The translations under genes were made by a program, and so were the position numbers. From NCBI GenBank assembly GCA_030830685.1, contig JAURMM010000172.1, positions 1 to 35,653 of the forward strand: a stretch of DNA of 35,653 bases. The letters run 5' to 3'. This DNA is from Gammaproteobacteria bacterium (GTDB taxonomy: Bacteria; Pseudomonadota; Gammaproteobacteria; Ga0077536). How positions within the stretch are numbered: position 1 is the first letter of the stretch; each line of letters starts with the position of its first letter. Below are positions 14,336 through 35,653 of this stretch, piece by piece. The notes beneath the pieces were generated by a model. That model saw only the letters and a program-made list of their open reading frames with translations, ran no database searches and had not been told where the DNA came from.

Positions 14336-15196
14336 TCAGAGATCCCGGTGAGTCAGAACGATATGCCAGTGCTCGCGGAAATGCGAGGCGATGCGCTCGG
14401 CGACATACACTGAGCGATGCCGACCGCCGGTGCAGCCGAGGGCGATCGTGAGGTAGCTGCGATCCTCCTGCTGGAAGCGCGGCAGCCAGCGCTCAAGGAA
14501 GCTCGTGATGTCATCCGTCAGTTCCTGCGCCAGCGCATTGCCATCCAGAAACTCCCGCACTGGAGCATCGCGCCCGGACATCTCCCGCAAACCCGGATCC
14601 CAGTGTGGATTGGGCAGGCAGCGCACATCAAAGATGAAATCAACATCCGGAGGCACGCCCTTCTTGTAGCCGAAGGAACTGATCTGCACCGCCAACGCAC
14701 CCGGCGAGCGCCGAGTCACCCGCTCGTTGAGCAACGCGCGAAACTCGTGGATGTGGGTATGGGTGGTATCGATGCGCAATTCGGCCCGTGCGATCAGAGG
14801 CTCGAGCAGGGCACGCTCGCGCGCAATGGCCTGGCGCAGCGGCAGGCTGGATGTCGACAGCGGATGCCGTCGGCGGGTGAGGTTGAAACGGTTGATCAGT
14901 GCCTGTTCACTCGCCTCGATGAAGAGCACCTCCACGGCGAATCCGCTCGCCCGCAGCAATTCCAGAATCTGCGGAAGCTGCTGCAGGTCGGTATCCGGGT
15001 TGCGGGCATCGATCCCGACTGCCACCTTGCTGTAGAGGGGCAGGGAGCTGCGACTCACGAACTGGGCGAACTCTGCCAGAAAACTCGTGGGCAGATTGTC
15101 CACGCAGTAGAAACCTGCATCCTCCAGGGCGTGGAGTGCCACGGTCTTGCCGGCGCCAGAAAGCCCCGACACCACGATGAAGCGTTGCAGGTTCAT
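14336..15196 (-). CDS. rapZ: RNase adapter protein RapZ
   Basis: A 286-residue P-loop protein; in E. coli it binds the GlmZ small RNA and directs its cleavage by RNase E, controlling glucosamine-6-phosphate supply. Walker A is GLSGAGKT (11-18), followed by FYCVDNLP. The C-terminal RNA and metabolite-sensing domain has the conserved SFGYKKGVP and GCTGGRHRSVYVAE. It stands in the rpoN cluster, 10 bp after hpf and just before HPr. Whether this organism has a GlmY/GlmZ system cannot be seen here. Confidence 0.97.
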   Translation of the reverse strand: MNLQRFIVVSGLSGAGKTVALHALEDAGFYCVDNLPTSFLAEFAQFVSRSSLPLYSKVAVGIDARNPDTDLQQLPQILELLRASGFAVEVLFIEASEQALINRFNLTRRRHPLSTSSLPLRQAIARERALLEPLIARAELRIDTTHTHIHEFRALLNERVTRRSPGALAVQISSFGYKKGVPPDVDFIFDVRCLPNPHWDPGLREMSGRDAPVREFLDGNALAQELTDDITSFLERWLPRFQQEDRSYLTIALGCTGGRHRSVYVAERIASHFREHWHIVLTHRDL

Positions 15197-15206
15197 CCAG
15201 GCTTAC

Positions 15207-15521
15207 TCAGACCCGATGTCCGCCTTCACGTGCATGATGATCGGTCATCTTCTCCTTGTGCTTGGTGACCTGACGGTCAAGCTTGTCCAGCATCAGATCG
15301 ATGGCAGCGTACATGTCTTCATGCTCGCTCGTGGCATGCAGGGTGGCGCCGGTGACATGCACCGTGGCTTCTGCCTTGTAGAGCTGGCGCTCCTGTCCCA
15401 GCACGAAATGTGCATCGACCATGTGGTCGAAATGGCGCTGTACGCGCTGCATCTTGGTCTTTATGTAGTCATTGAGGGCTGGTGAAAGCTCAATGTGGTG
15501 GCCGGTGATATTAATCTGCAT
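15207..15521 (-). CDS. hpf: Ribosome hibernation promoting factor (short HPF/YfiA family)
   Basis: A 104-residue protein that binds the 30S decoding region in stationary phase. It starts MQINITGHHIELSPAL, with the typical DYIKTKMQRVQRHFDH helix and VTGATLHATSEHEDMYAAIDLMLDKLDRQ (landmarks HATSEHEDMYAAID and LDKLDRQ). The length marks it as the short form, which acts alongside RMF where present. It lies 68 bp downstream of rpoN, the usual order in this cluster. Confidence 0.97.
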   Translation of the reverse strand: MQINITGHHIELSPALNDYIKTKMQRVQRHFDHMVDAHFVLGQERQLYKAEATVHVTGATLHATSEHEDMYAAIDLMLDKLDRQVTKHKEKMTDHHAREGGHRV

Positions 15522-15589
15522 GATGGGACTCTCCTGTCGAACTGTCCTGTTTTGACCGCGCCCGTAATACGCCCGTTCCGCGGCGCCGC

Positions 15590-17101
15590 TCAGGCAAACT
15601 TCTTGCGTTCATTGGAGGGAGGAATCTGCATACCCTCCCGGTATTTGGCGACCGTGCGACGAGCGACATTGATCCCCTCCTTGGTCAATATCGCCGCGAT
15701 CTTGCTGTCGCTCAAGGGTTTCACCGCATTCTCCGCTGCAATGAGGCGCTTGATCACTGCGCGGATTGCAGTTGAAGACGCCTCTCCGCCAAGCGCCGTG
15801 CTGACATGGCTGGAAAAGAAGTACTTGAGCTCGAAAGTACCACGTGGGGTGTGCAGGTACTTGCGCGTAGTCACGCGAGAGATAGTTGATTCGTGCAAGC
15901 CCAAGGCCTCGGCGATGTCGTGCAGGACCATCGGCCGCATGGCTTCCTCGCCATACTCGAGAAAGGCCCGCTGGCGCTCCACGATTTCCTTGGCCACGCG
16001 CAGCAGGGTTTCGCTCCGACTCTGCAGGCTCTTGATGAACCAGCGCGCCTCCTGCAGATGGGTGCGCAACGAGTTGTTGTCCGGGGTGTTCTCGGCCCGC
16101 CGGATCATGTTCATGTAGTAGGGATTGATGCGCAGTTGCGGCACGGCCTCGGCGTTGAGTTCGACTTTCCAGCGCCCATTCACCTTGCGCACATAGACAT
16201 CGGGCACCAGGTACTCGGTAGTCGAGGACGCATAAGCCGCTCCGGGTCGCGGAGAGAGTGATCGCACCAGCGCCACCACTTCTGCCACTTCGGCCTGATC
16301 CAGTTTGAATCTGCGGCCGAGCTGCACGAAATCGCGGCTGGCGAGTGCCTCCAGCGCCTGTTCGCACACTGCGAGCGCCTCTTCCCGCCAAGGAGTGTCC
16401 GGGGGCAATTGCCGCAACTGCAGGATCAGGCATTCCTGCACATCGCGCGCGCCCACTCCAGCCGGTTCCATCATCTGGATCTGCTTCAGCACGGTCGCGA
16501 TCTCATCGAGACCGGGCGCGTCCTTGCCCAACATGGTGACCAAGGTCTCTCGCAAATCTTCCAAGGTCACCCGCAGGAATCCGTCCTCATCGATTCCATC
16601 GATGAGCGCTATGCCGATTTCCCGATCCAGCGGTGTCAGCGGGATCAGATTGAGCTGCCAGAGCAGGTGCTCGCGCAGGCTTTCGGCGGGCCCGGACTGG
16701 TTTTCGCGCCCCTCGTCGTCACCGCTTCCGGCCGGCGCCCCCTGTGGCAGCGTGCTGTCAAAGACCTCTTCCCAGTCCGCATCCACCGGCAGGTCCTCGG
16801 GGATGTCGTCGGTAGTCGAGGCGCGGCTGTCGTCCCAGTCCTCGGTCTCGCCTCCAAGCTCTCCGTCCGCCCCCTCCCGTTCGCCGTCATTGTCAGCCGC
16901 CGGGGTCGCGGGTCCGAGATCAAGGCCCAGATCCGGCAGCTCACGCTCGTCTTCGAGCTCCAGCATGATGTTGGAGTCCAGAGCCTGCTGGACTTCCAGG
17001 GTCAGTTCCATCGAAGAGAGCTGCAGCAGCCGTATGGCCTGCTGCAGCTGAGGCGTCATGGTGAGCGTCTGCCCGAGCTTGAGCTGAAGGGCCTGTTTCA
17101 T
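15590..17101 (-). CDS. rpoN: RNA polymerase sigma-54 factor
   Basis: A 503-residue sigma-54, requiring enhancer-binding ATPases. Region I (about 1-50) is Gln-rich with LGQTLTMTPQLQQAIRLLQ. It is followed by an acidic region II (about 50-140). Then come the core-binding domain, the helix-turn-helix (GLHESTISRVTTRKYLHTPRG) and the RpoN box ARRTVAKYRE (480-489) that reads the -24 element. It lies between lptB and hpf, as in most gammaproteobacteria, with a 120 bp gap to lptB. Confidence 0.98.
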   Translation of the reverse strand: MKQALQLKLGQTLTMTPQLQQAIRLLQLSSMELTLEVQQALDSNIMLELEDERELPDLGLDLGPATPAADNDGEREGADGELGGETEDWDDSRASTTDDIPEDLPVDADWEEVFDSTLPQGAPAGSGDDEGRENQSGPAESLREHLLWQLNLIPLTPLDREIGIALIDGIDEDGFLRVTLEDLRETLVTMLGKDAPGLDEIATVLKQIQMMEPAGVGARDVQECLILQLRQLPPDTPWREEALAVCEQALEALASRDFVQLGRRFKLDQAEVAEVVALVRSLSPRPGAAYASSTTEYLVPDVYVRKVNGRWKVELNAEAVPQLRINPYYMNMIRRAENTPDNNSLRTHLQEARWFIKSLQSRSETLLRVAKEIVERQRAFLEYGEEAMRPMVLHDIAEALGLHESTISRVTTRKYLHTPRGTFELKYFFSSHVSTALGGEASSTAIRAVIKRLIAAENAVKPLSDSKIAAILTKEGINVARRTVAKYREGMQIPPSNERKKFA

Positions 17102-18527: not shown

Positions 18528-19074
18528 AGCGGGTTCTCACCCTCTCCAGAAGTTCCAGACGGTTGTGTTCGAAGTTCGCACGGAAACCGCGCGTGCGCGT
18601 GATCGTGGCCGGCCCCTTGATCGTCGCCAACCGGTCGGTCTCGGCGTACTGAACCTTCGGGAACACTCGCAGTTCTGAGGTCAGGATTTCATATTCACGC
18701 ACGCCGCGCGCGTTGACGCGCCAGATCTCCACACGCCCCTGCAGCAGGATGACTTCGTTGTCAGCCTTGACCAGGCCTCGTTCCGCCACGACTTGCCAAG
18801 GGGACTCGCCCCCATTGTAAATCTCCATATGGGGGTGGGCCAGTTCGGTGGTGTCATCGAGTGGGAAATGCGTGACAGCCTCGGCGGTCAAAACGCTCTG
18901 CAGGCCACCTTCGCGATTCATCGTGCGGCGGGTCATCTCCTCGAGGTAATAGTCGGGCTGATCGGCAGCCGCGCGCTGGCGAGCCTCATCATCGTCATCC
19001 AGTCGTTCGAGCAGCCAGAAAGTCAGCACCCCCAGGAGCACGCTTCCAATGGCAGCAGCAATGGTCCGTGTCAT
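18496..19074 (-). CDS. lptC: LPS export protein LptC
   Basis: A 192-residue bitopic inner-membrane protein that passes LPS from LptBFG to LptA. One N-terminal membrane helix (about residues 5-23) is followed by the periplasmic jellyroll with YYLEEMTRRTMNREG, WQVVAERGLVKADNEVILLQG and a late TSELRVFP segment. It overlaps kdsC by 4 bp and lptA by 32 bp, so Kdo synthesis and LPS export are read as one unit. Confidence 0.95.
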   Translation of the reverse strand: MTRTIAAAIGSVLLGVLTFWLLERLDDDDEARQRAAADQPDYYLEEMTRRTMNREGGLQSVLTAEAVTHFPLDDTTELAHPHMEIYNGGESPWQVVAERGLVKADNEVILLQGRVEIWRVNARGVREYEILTSELRVFPKVQYAETDRLATIKGPATITRTRGFRANFEHNRLELLERVRTRYDSQEKSPPA

Positions 19075-33375: not shown

Positions 33376-33404
33376 TTGTCCCGGCATGCCTCGGTGGCTA
33401 TCAT
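33376..33404 (+). promoter_or_regulatory. Candidate sigma70 promoter of tRNA-Lys
   Basis: -35 TTGTCC (4 of 6), a 17 bp spacer, -10 TATCAT (5 of 6), 24 bp before the tRNA 5' end. The GC-rich stretch directly after the -10 (CCGCCGC) resembles the discriminators of growth-rate controlled stable RNA promoters. Confidence 0.5.
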
Positions 33405-33428
33405 CCGCCGCTCTCCGCCAGATGCCTC

Positions 33429-33504
33429 GCGCCGTTAGCTCAGCTGGTAGAGCAGTGGACTTTTAATCCATTGGTCGTAGGTTCGAATCCTACACGGCGC
33501 ACCA
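33429..33504 (+). tRNA. tRNA-Lys (anticodon UUU)
   Basis: A 76-nt cloverleaf with the CCA end encoded. The acceptor arms GCGCCGT and ACGGCGC pair fully. The D arm is GCTCAGCTGGTAGAGC. The anticodon loop CTTTTAA (33460-33466) gives anticodon TTT at 33462-33464. The T arm is GTAGG TTCGAAT CCTAC. It lies at the edge between the conserved block and the accessory-looking tail. No copy of its 3' end is seen further right, so there is no evidence in the window of integration at this tRNA. Confidence 0.97.
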
Positions 33505-33631
33505 CTGACCTCTCCCTTCCCGCGATGCACACCCACACTGCCGGCCCGGCTATGTCTACCGCACCGCCGGCAACTGACATGGCAGAGGTCGTCCTTGCCC
33601 CGCCATGTCAGGTATTTCATGTGCCCTGACT

Positions 33632-33880
33632 TTACTGCGCGAGATACCAGGGACCGACCTTCACCGCGGCAGAGGTGGGATCCGCGGACTCGGTGGTCGG
33701 GGCTTCAGGCCGATAGAACGGACCGGCTGCATTACTGCCCGAGGGAGCTGCGGCTGCGGAGTTGCCCACGACACCGGCCACGGCTCCGGTAGCGACAGCA
33801 TTAGCCCAGGGCGCGAATCCCTGAGCCTGCGCACCCATGCTGGCTGCGCCGATGATCATTGCAATGATGGACTTCTTCAT
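33632..33880 (-). CDS. Small secreted Gly/Ala-rich protein, unknown function
   Basis: An 82-residue protein I do not recognise. A signal peptide is clear (MKKSIIAMIIGAASM, cleavage near AQA, residue 19). The mature part has a small-residue segment (NAVATGAVAGVVGNSAAAA) like a glycine zipper, then an acidic, Pro-rich tail ending VGPWYLAQ. A strong AAAGGAG ribosome site precedes the ATG with normal spacing, which supports real translation. There is no cysteine and no lipobox. It stands alone between the tRNA and a REP-like repeat. Confidence 0.72.
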   Translation of the reverse strand: MKKSIIAMIIGAASMGAQAQGFAPWANAVATGAVAGVVGNSAAAAPSGSNAAGPFYRPEAPTTESADPTSAAVKVGPWYLAQ

Positions 33881-34253
33881 GACTGGCTCCTTTCAGTATG
33901 TTTGCCTGTCGGTCTGTGACCGTGGCGTGCATTCTGGGATTCATTTTTCCAGCCGTGAAATTGGAAGTTTTTATGCTCTCCATCGTCAGAGGCTATCAAG
34001 CTCGCACTCCCGTTGCGCATCCTGAAATTGGTGACAGTTACCCTATTTCTACTTCTCCTGCTCGGGTGACTACCGCCAAGAGAGAAGCACATCGGGACGG
34101 AAATGAGGTAACTGTCACCAATTTCCGTGTCACCAATTTCCGTCGCCCCCTCCACTTCGTGACAGAGGGGAACAACTCTCGCTTGTCGGGAAGAAAGTGA
34201 AGCCGACTTGGATCAAACAGCCCAGTGCCGCCGGTGAACGACACCGCGCCCGC
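33881..34253. other. 373 bp gap holding a REP-like repeat
   Basis: No credible gene: the open frames here are short and lack ribosome sites. The right half holds the inverted and tandem repeat listed separately. The left part is more AT-rich than the rest of the window and should contain the promoter of the small secreted protein at 33632-33880, but no clear -10/-35 pair stands out. Confidence 0.7.
34024..34143. repeat. REP-like inverted repeat with a tandem half-copy
   Basis: A perfect 19 bp inverted repeat: GAAATTGGTGACAGTTACC at 34024-34042 and its complement at 34107-34125, around a 64 bp spacer. The right arm runs into a 15 bp direct duplication of GTCACCAATTTCCGT (34114-34128 and 34129-34143). 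From memory, repeats with the GAAATTGGTGACAG core are dispersed intergenic elements near REP-associated (Y1) transposases in various proteobacteria. No transposase is present here, so this would be a non-autonomous or remnant copy. Confidence 0.75.
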
Positions 34254-34730
34254 TCAGAATTTGCCCTGTACGCGCCGGAGCTCGAACTTGCCGGGATAGC
34301 CGTTTGAAAGTGCCACCCCGTAGCCGCCATAGGCGAGGTTGCTGACATGGGCCATGTTCAACTGGTGCAGATAGATGGTACCTGTCATGGTCTCGGTGAT
34401 ACCCAGATTCACGTAGCCGTAGGTGAAGGTGAACGTTGCGCGGCAGGCGGAATCCACAGTGTACGTGCCTGTGCCCGGGACGGTAGCCAGAACCGCCGGA
34501 CCGAAACGGTCCTCGACGCCGGTTGCCTCTACTGTAATCGCACCGGACCCGTTGAACCTCAGCCGGGCAATTGCCCCGTCGGCATCCGTGCTGTCGGTTT
34601 CCATGATGTCAGCGGTGTACCAGCCTCGGAGAGTTCCTTTGTTGCAGACGCCGGCCTGGGCTACAGCGGCTGTCAGCATGAAAATCATGAGCAGGCTGAA
34701 GCGCCCTGCTGGAGAAGAAATCGGGTTCAT
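34254..34730 (-). CDS. Secreted protein of unknown function
   Basis: A 158-residue exported protein. The signal peptide has the core FSLLMIFMLTAAV, with cleavage near AQA (about residue 25). The mature domain is Gly/Thr-rich with alternating strands and two cysteines: one in GVCNKGTLRGWY at the start and one in SACRATFTF in the middle, perhaps a disulfide. It looks like a small beta-barrel or sandwich. The ATG at 34730 has AAGGAG 9 nt upstream; an earlier TTG lacks one. No family is assigned with confidence. It resembles poorly characterised small secreted proteins with a GTGTYTV...C pattern. Confidence 0.75.
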   Translation of the reverse strand: MNPISSPAGRFSLLMIFMLTAAVAQAGVCNKGTLRGWYTADIMETDSTDADGAIARLRFNGSGAITVEATGVEDRFGPAVLATVPGTGTYTVDSACRATFTFTYGYVNLGITETMTGTIYLHQLNMAHVSNLAYGGYGVALSNGYPGKFELRRVQGKF

Positions 34731-35031
34731 GAGCAAACTCTCCTTGTTGAGTCTTTACTCGGGATCCTGACGTGGATTGGCGGACGAGGCGAGTGCCGGA
34801 TGGAGCCCGCAGAGGTGCTATCTGCCGGAATTGCGCGTTTCATCACAAAAACTCCGGCTATAGCCAGCGCCTGATACGCGGAGAATTCTCCACGCGCTTC
34901 GGAACATGGCCCCCTCGGGTTTACCCCTGAACCGGCAGACATGTGAATTCTCGATACCGACAGCCCACTAAAGCCCGGAAAGTAGACTGTCGTGTTGCGT
35001 GCGGATTCACCCGGAAGCCACGCGTAGAAAG
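34731..35031. other. 301 bp gap without a convincing gene
   Basis: Reading both strands I find no supported gene. A 12 bp perfect palindrome, GGAGAATTCTCC, occurs at 34880-34891, flanked on both sides by ACGC. GAATTCTC recurs near 34946. These could be operator half-sites for the leftward secreted-protein gene, but this is speculative. Confidence 0.5.
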
Positions 35032-35653
35032 TCAGAAGTCTGCTCCAGAACTCTGCGTCAGACCCTCTCGATTGACCGCCAGCAAGGGAATCTGGTCGGA
35101 ACGGCCTGCCGCCAGCGCTTCATCAAGACGCATGAGCACGACGTCACTGGTGCCGTAGTTGGTGACCGCCAGAAGATTGGCCTGTGGTAGCACATCAATC
35201 CCATGCGGGAAGCTGTAGCCACCTATCGCCTTTTCGAATGAGAGGTTGGTTCCGTCGGTGATCAGCACCCGCAGGCAGTCGTCCATCTGATCGGTAACGA
35301 AGATGCGGCCATCATGGTATATGCAGCTGTCCGCCTGACAGACCGACATTACCACCTCGCAAATGAGCTGGTGACTGGAACACTCCAAATCCAAGGCAAT
35401 CAAGCTCGCCTTGGAAGCATATGGCGCCTTCGATTTTGCGCTCGGATTTTTTTGAGTCCAGATGACAACCATCTTCGTATCATCGATGAAACAGACATCT
35501 TTCGGGTTCCAGCCTTCCATCCGGAATTGATAAAGCAGGGCTCCGGTCTCAAGTTGGATGAAGAATATCCACGGACGGTTGGCCAGACACAAAACGCGCC
35601 CGCCAGGCACGAACTTGACGCCATGACACTGGCCGGGGTCTTCGAAAGGAACA
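35032..35653 (-). CDS. Beta-propeller-like protein, C-terminal part (5' end outside window)
   Basis: An open frame of about 207 codons continues to the right edge, so the start is missing. Strand-turn repeats of propeller type are visible: LCLANRPWIFFIQLETGALLYQF, CFIDDTKMVVIW, RIFVTDQMDDCLRVL and FPHGIDVLPQANLLAVTNYGTSDVVLMRL (only landmarks such as FPHGIDVLP are diagnostic). The last resembles NHL or YncE-like blades. No catalytic motif is visible. Neighbouring genes suggest an accessory region. A specific function cannot be given. Confidence 0.7.
   Translation of the reverse strand, partial: VPFEDPGQCHGVKFVPGGRVLCLANRPWIFFIQLETGALLYQFRMEGWNPKDVCFIDDTKMVVIWTQKNPSAKSKAPYASKASLIALDLECSSHQLICEVVMSVCQADSCIYHDGRIFVTDQMDDCLRVLITDGTNLSFEKAIGGYSFPHGIDVLPQANLLAVTNYGTSDVVLMRLDEALAAGRSDQIPLLAVNREGLTQSSGADF

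Follow-up and report, generated by a model that had tools for sequence, protein, structure and literature searches.

A lineage-specific but probably inherited stretch behind tRNA-Lys in a gammaproteobacterial genome, with a hairpin repeat linked to a TIRYT-like transposase

The question raised by this locus is whether the DNA behind a tRNA-Lys gene at the end of a gammaproteobacterial contig is an inserted island or an inherited part of the chromosome. The window, i.e. the whole stretch of DNA analysed (35,653 nucleotides), is the entire contig JAURMM010000172.1 (C122) of a genome of 3.09 Mb in 264 contigs (GCA_030830685.1; G000, the genome under study), and position 35653 is the contig end. 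ARAGORN located the tRNA-Lys gene (anticodon TTT) at 33429..33504 on the forward strand, and the tail behind it, 33505-35653, carries three open reading frames (ORFs) on the reverse strand, here called genes 1 to 3. A sequence-only reading had described this tail as accessory-looking, with orphan secreted proteins, and had put forward an island as a hypothesis; the tRNA and the three ORFs were confirmed, with a revised start for gene 2. Taken as one joint reading, the stretch behind tRNA-Lys is very probably lineage-specific but inherited chromosome with a transposase-spread hairpin repeat, and not a recent island. The false lead of an island is weakened and replaced by a concrete, countable element.

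The DNA search covered 58 genomes including the genome under study, with matches in all of them, and 19 relative loci, one per genome, were fetched from the 57 others. In 18 of the 19 the fetched stretch carries both the gene aspS and tRNA-Lys; the exception is G006, with a tRNA-Lys stretch without aspS. The closest relative among the 19 is G002 (aspS identity 96%). Alignment of 33400-34780 with G002 gave tRNA, gene 1, repeat and gene 2 in identical order. Gene 1 (33632..33880, reverse strand) is 83% identical, and gene 2 (34254..34730, reverse strand) 74% identical, to the G002 copy at the same place. Genes 1 and 2 are more than chance ORFs and have been under purifying selection, with ratios of nonsynonymous to synonymous divergence (dN/dS, Nei-Gojobori script) of 0.13 and 0.11; the value for aspS is 0.023. 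The synonymous divergence (dS) between the two genomes is 0.90 for gene 1, 1.59 for gene 2 and 0.93 for aspS.

The agreement with G002 continues beyond the contig. G002 L064:6005-13179, which begins 1.9 kb and ends 9.1 kb beyond the start of gene 2, matches C186:11838-18992 of the genome under study at 80%. Since C186 matches the onward DNA of G002 and ends at 19000, it is likely the next contig after C122. Between gene 2 and the C186-matching block G002 has a 504-amino-acid ankyrin/PhyH gene, at the place where C122 carries gene 3. As genes 1 and 2 and the hairpin doublet between them keep one order in both genomes, they were most likely in place already in the common ancestor of G000 and G002.

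Among most of the fetched relatives the DNA behind tRNA-Lys varies, with common blocks within G012/G019/G020/G011 and within G016/G022/G034. Five congeners besides the genome under study were searched, and no match to genes 1 and 2 was obtained in the four other than G002; therefore the tail is accessory at the genus scale, as had been supposed. Gene 3 is found in none of the five. Occurrence in close relatives is thus uneven, and G002, the one congener with genes 1 and 2, carries them in synteny behind its tRNA-Lys. The sequence-only reading had named all three genes in most relatives as the finding that would refute an island; this was not found either.

The account of the tail in that reading left out an inverted repeat at 34024-34125, which lies with a partial third arm in the 373-bp gap between genes 1 and 2. 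The left arm (GAAATTGGTGACAGTTACCCTATTTC) is at 34024..34049 on the forward strand and the right, inverted arm at 34100..34125 on the reverse strand; together they make up a hairpin doublet of about 100 to 120 bases of the gap. The partial extra arm (TGTCACCAATTTCCG; 34128..34142, reverse strand) is a direct copy of 34113-34127, and none was seen in G002. The left arm is identical to G002 in 28 of 28 bases (34022-34049) and the right arm in 24 of 26 (34098-34123), i.e. 52 of 54 bases together. The spacer between the arms aligns poorly and is largely diverged, and approximately half of the synonymous sites in the surrounding genes differ. If this contrast is true, the arms would have been renewed or selected, and not merely inherited.

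Copies of the pattern AATTGGTGACAGTTACC (at most 1 mismatch) were counted in the 58 genomes. There are 30 copies in the genome under study, 74 in G002, one in G005, two in G040 and none in the other 54, while the control, the same pattern reversed, has a single occurrence across the 58 genomes. The G002 copies listed, which are not all of them, are spread over 12 of roughly 190 contigs, with many at C1:84-126 kb; in G002:C1:83940-125771 (L088-L090) many doublets stand between ordinary genes, with no copy found at about 104.3-120.9 kb. The arm consensus AAATTGGTGACAGTTACCCTATTTCC is 25-28 bp long (35 units from G000, 83 units from G002). In both genomes most arms form inverted, hairpin-folding, extragenic doublets, as in REP and REPIN elements, and the consensus of the 35 and 83 units holds no conserved GTAG or GTGG at the hairpin foot, the GT[AG]G of canonical REP and REPIN repeats. 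A literature text search, made with the core string GGTGACAGTTACC alone among the repeat variants, gave no match.

Clusters were taken from the stretches fetched around listed copies (at most 2 mismatches; some listed copies, e.g. G002:C35, lie outside this set). The 49 clusters (18 in G000 and 31 in G002) include 14 and 25 doublets of a forward (+) and a reverse (-) copy, respectively. The 41 multi-copy clusters contain 69 neighbouring pairs, namely 39 '+-', 16 '++', 14 '--' and no '-+'; after shuffling, '-+' is expected with a mean of 24 and a minimum of 12 in 10,000. Three doublets folded as single-strand DNA gave z values of -5.95 (34022-34144, this locus), -9.98 and -9.71. Only one of the 49 clusters is inside an ORF, and four were untyped. 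Clusters lie between convergent ORFs in 20 of 44 typed cases compared with 14 of 93 control gaps (p 2.4e-4), a count that uses a rough ORF picker and takes shared sites twice. Judged by both flanks, at least 7 of the 18 G000 clusters correspond in position to a G002 cluster (this locus included by alignment); seven is a lower limit because only repeat-bearing G002 loci were compared. Two further G000 clusters agree with G002 on one flank, and the remainder have no clear counterpart.

A candidate enzyme for the repeat is encoded in the same genome. A single protein of the genome under study matched PF01797 (E 9.8e-11, 42.3 bits, cut-off 23). It is 221 amino acids long, and HuH and Y---NP motifs can be read in the translation (MPNHVHFV, RYVECNP). 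By profile and motifs, it carries a predicted Y1 (IS200-like) transposase domain; PDB entry 4er8 was matched with E 7e-4 over query residues 50-141. The transposases of G000 and G002 are 89-90% identical, with a dN/dS of 0.12. In G002 the gene has + copies of the repeat starting 153 and 86 bp before it, and + and - copies behind. In G000 a + copy stands before the gene and the contig ends behind it; a +- pair lies on C189 beside a repetition of the last 43 codons of the gene. These codons are identical at the ends of G000:C222 and G000:C189, and because both ends share them the two contigs are probably overlapping neighbours. The transposase gene, which lies on another contig than the tail, is flanked in both genomes by inverted non-GTAG repeats of the same family as the tail doublet. 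At L083:3098-3117 an arm overlaps the 3' end of the glutathione S-transferase (GST)-like gene located before the transposase gene, and the GST-like protein ends in VVTVT.

Transposase relatives (E 1e-10 or better) were found in 29 of the 58 genomes, so the enzyme family is far wider than the repeat. The best 12 transposase loci were read (L106-L117), ten of them besides those of G000 and G002, and arm-like GG[GT]GACA sites stand at 8 of these 10. The motif GGTGACAG occurs in G000, G002 and G019. GGGGACA[CG] occurs at the transposase loci of G011, G013, G014, G036, G056, G030 and G054, and also in the G040 repeat. Only in G019, G013, G036, G014 and G056 is the gene immediately preceded by a + arm and immediately followed by a - arm. 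Other layouts are doublets before the gene (G011), near copies in the same orientation (G030) and - copies far off (G054).

The closest published likeness is to TIRYT genes and TIRtrons. Di Nocera et al. 2013 (PMC3733652) report such repeats as terminal inverted repeats (TIRs) of TIRYT genes; GGGGWSAS is given in the text available for some TIRs only and is thus not strictly defining. In the survey of Quentin et al. 2018 (PMC6006769), 20 of 26 TIRYTs fall into subclass 2.1; the survey detected no REP-like repeats close to genes of this subclass, holds the subclass to be probably the TIRYTs, and calls for further analysis. As far as these two sources go in the parts available, the agreement comprises a Y1/HuH transposase gene between inverted repeats without a GTAG foot, and repeats also dispersed genome-wide as dimers or clusters. 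GGGGACA[CG] of the eight related or similar repeats elsewhere fits the published GGGGWSAS, whereas the G000/G002/G019 motif GGTGACAG fits it in 7 of 8 letters, not strictly. Multi-copy clusters here are always '+..+-..-', a strict order that does not appear in the TIRtron descriptions consulted, although one preferred dimer orientation has already been described for GTAG and CGTC repeats (PMC3733652). A further, possible difference concerns the C-terminal part of the enzyme. For a helix-turn-helix (HTH)-like or DnaA-like domain there (Bac_DnaA_C, HTH_23, HTH_28), as in subclass 2.1, neither of the two transposases gave a Pfam match at E <=5, a search in which HMMER filters drop most weak hits.

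The REPIN/RAYT system, as described in the available parts of Bertels and Rainey 2011 (PMC3116915) and Nunvar et al. 2010 (PMC2817692), likewise has intergenic inverted hairpin doublets and a transposase gene flanked by the same repeats as the dispersed doublets. It differs in the GT(A/G)G head, absent from the repeat studied here, which is also not a GC-rich palindrome, and in tandem or alternating units in place of the '+..+-..-' form. In three marine gammaproteobacteria the repeats cluster close to the rayt gene, according to the text available of Nunvar et al. 2010 (PMC2817692); the listed G002 copies are on about a dozen contigs whose order is not known. TnpA_REP of E. coli (PDB 4er8; organism as given in the part of PMC6006769 consulted) agrees in the sequence match noted above; the relation is distant, and the protein here has 221 amino acids with a longer C-terminal part. 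Since the published TIRYT repeats are TIRs, some with GGGGWSAS, the repeat would be filed with TIRtron-like elements whether or not its enzyme falls into subclass 2.1, and is REPIN-like in its working without being a canonical REP.

In the proposed mechanism the transposase would cut and rejoin single-stranded hairpins and in this way place copies of the doublets in intergenic DNA, more often than expected between convergent genes. Tentatively, and with somewhat more doubt than trust, we suggest that a TIRYT-type transposase of this lineage, known here from a metagenome-assembled genome, built the dispersed doublets and still maintains them, the repeat core changing from GGGG to GGTG with the enzyme. 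TIR-type elements are so far only briefly described in the consulted parts of PMC3733652 and PMC6006769. The G000/G002 pair with its shared sites, together with transposase relatives of approximately 90% down to 34% identity with differing repeats, forms a data set for the joint change of enzyme and hairpin.

Several points weigh against an inherited tail with a transposase-spread repeat. The profile NF047646 (REP_Tyr_transpos), whose E of 2.4e-19 counts in favour, reached only 69.7 bits, under its curated cut-off of 80. The repeat occurs in only 4 of the 58 genomes, as against the 29 with a transposase relative, and 2 of the 10 other transposase loci have no arm-like repeat (G020 with one stray site, G050 with none). 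Mobility of the repeat itself is a proposal only. A lone arm folds weakly (z -1.85, with 9 of 200 shuffles as good). The convergent count is loose for the reasons given above, the shortage of clusters between divergent genes falls short of significance (p 0.12), and the flanks of the G000 site L083:2405 are joined in G002 without a repeat. At the locus itself, about 128 bp separate the doublet from the stop codon of gene 2 in G000, and 9 bp in G002. The dS of gene 2 exceeds that of the core gene aspS, i.e. gene 2 evolves faster. The stretch between C122 and C186 is unsequenced. Finally, genes 1 and 2 are missing in four of five congeners, which an old insertion before the split of G000 and G002 would explain too.

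The two explanations by insertion were weighed on the tRNA end, the DNA behind it and the integrases. Ends of tRNA genes are common insertion points. The last 20 tRNA bases were searched on both strands with at most 3 mismatches in the window and in 18 relative loci (G033, where the contig ends at the tRNA, was omitted). In accordance with the sequence-only reading, no copy is present in the tail; the search it had proposed past 35653 was negative in C186:11000-19000, and the G002 locus L064, which reaches the contig end, holds no second copy. As C122 ends 2.1 kb behind the tRNA, the far side of a putative island may lie unseen. In the congener G004 (L067, G004:C17) an exact copy of the last 20 bases lies at +3260 (turned locus), within a duplicate of 48 bp that comprises the tRNA 3' half and one base behind it, with one mismatch. 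Because of this 48-bp duplicate 3.26 kb on, the tRNA-Lys end probably served as an insertion site in G004, so the general remark on tRNA ends was right for this site in a congener. The DNA between tRNA and duplicate in G004 carries an AAA_14/DUF4143 gene and one ORF that matched no Pfam family, and this contig holds no PF00589 integrase. A worn copy (18 of 20 bases) was found at +249 in G030 (L075, G030:C36). At G033:C220:14728 (L076) the contig stops exactly at the last tRNA-Lys base, perhaps reflecting strain differences at this junction. Ten genomes were searched for PF00589 integrases, and all ten have matches, but none of these is on the contig with tRNA-Lys; the search did not extend to serine integrases or to the unsequenced DNA behind C122, and the test is weaker where contigs end soon behind the tRNA, those of G001 and G033 ending within 1 kb.

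That genes 1 and 2 arrived in the G000/G002 ancestor with an old insertion at tRNA-Lys, which has since decayed and lost its mobility genes, is unlikely. The confinement of both genes to this pair within the genus and the use of the site in G004 are consistent with it. The corresponding G002 contig C37 gave no PF00589 match, however, and the lack of a second tRNA end in L064 speaks in the same direction. Gene 1 also has relatives elsewhere in another genus, with a partly common upstream box, which an old family gene fits equally. Still less likely is an island that integrated at tRNA-Lys, starts at 33505 and extends past the contig end. The absence of genes 1 and 2 from four of five congeners, the differing DNA behind this tRNA in most relatives read, and the tRNA-end duplicates in G004 and G030 would agree with such an island, but G002 has both genes in synteny, with a core-like dS for gene 1, the onward G002 DNA is found on C186, and neither a tRNA-end copy in the tail or C186:11000-19000 nor a PF00589 integrase on the tRNA-Lys contigs was detected. 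That the doublet is a mere terminator or regulatory RNA hairpin of gene 2, with no tie to a transposase, is highly improbable: it folds into a strong hairpin and in G002 sits directly behind the gene 2 stop codon, but in G000 it lies much farther from that stop, and the same arms occur 30 and 74 times in the two genomes, flank the transposase gene and adjoin unrelated genes. The doublet may have a side role as terminator.

For the inherited tail itself, genes 1 and 2 are predicted to encode small exported proteins. No family was assigned to either in Pfam and NCBIfam, and gene 3 had weak matches only. Gene 1 encodes 82 amino acids with an apparent signal peptide (by eye) and the motifs FAPW, PFYR and VKVGPWY. 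It matched strongly in G000 and G002 and weakly (E 0.001-0.009) in seven more of the 58 genomes, three of these with internal stops. The relatives in G012 and G019, which belong to one genus, have 39-40% identity, with FAPW, YR and PWY in common. A putative upstream box (ATAAAAACTTCCAATTTCAC; 33955..33974, reverse strand) lies approximately 75-94 bp before the ATG of gene 1. In an alignment of upstream DNA it is partly kept, about 80 bp upstream, in G002, G012 and G019; the G012 (L054) and G019 (L055) box, ATAAAAAC-T--AATTTC, is partly common with the DNA upstream of gene 1. Directly downstream of the gene 1 relative, G012 and G019 encode a metallo-beta-lactamase (MBL)-fold protein. The best profile was Blh, sulfur transferase/dioxygenase (E 6.1e-30 and 2.5e-28); hydroxyacylglutathione hydrolase (glyoxalase II) scored nearly as well, and all scores were far under the curated cut-offs. 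We take these MBL-fold proteins to be ETHE1-like. The neighbourhood, the sole context clue for gene 1, hints at sulfur or thiol handling.

Gene 2 encodes an orphan of 158 amino acids with an apparent signal peptide (by eye); the ATG at 34730, with AAGGAGAG upstream, was preferred over the TTG at 34736. Two of the 58 genomes gave matches (G000 itself and G002); a class sample of 369 genomes, which evidently does not include G002, gave none outside G000, and in genome_contigs the G002 record was the sole relative. A PHROG search gave one weak match (E 0.032), and among PDB sequences 21nr_A matched over a short stretch of 26 residues (E 8.3e-4). The structure model is poor, with a mean predicted local distance difference test (pLDDT) score of 48.3, and mainly strand.

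Gene 3 (35032..35652, reverse strand) encodes the C-terminal 206 amino acids of a protein that resembles NHL-type beta-propellers; the ORF is open at the window edge, where C122 ends as well, and so lacks its true start. PF01436 (NHL) was matched with E 0.0088, under the cut-off. In the 58 genomes gene 3 matched itself and, weakly (E 0.001), G012 and G019, with no match in G002; the 369-genome class sample added G174 (E 8.6e-6, 33% over query 117-180, one internal stop). Against PDB sequences only chance-level matches were obtained, and the structure model is poor (mean pLDDT 44.7). The relatives in G012 and G019 resemble, by eye, what we presume to be propellers of the SMP-30/gluconolactonase type. 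Gene 3 probably encodes a beta-propeller protein, sitting where G002 has the ankyrin/PhyH gene. A phage or plasmid origin was also considered and set aside, by searches with genes 2 and 3 only: neither matched anything in plasmid records, and gene 3, the only one compared with phage records, found nothing there. Short-pattern searches of viral contigs gave no relative of genes 2 or 3.

The drop in gene density past the tRNA, as earlier described, is real: ORFs cover 0.627 of the tail and 0.949 of 1-33428, the latter value coming from a rough ORF picker that itself overlooked gene 1. The gaps in the tail are 127, 373 and 301 bp (the last 295 bp with the TTG start of gene 2), so that gaps above 300 bp are correct for the second and, barely, for the third, and not for the first; the same rough picker left a gap of 426 bp in the core part as well (1566-1991). 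The G+C content of 34001-35000, 0.578, is the minimum among 35 segments, but 15001-16000 has a similar value of 0.582. A 16-base direct repeat (AGGCTATCAAGCTCGC, 15 of 16 bases alike) stands at 33990-34005, before the left arm, and at 35394-35409, inside gene 3, and may be due to chance.

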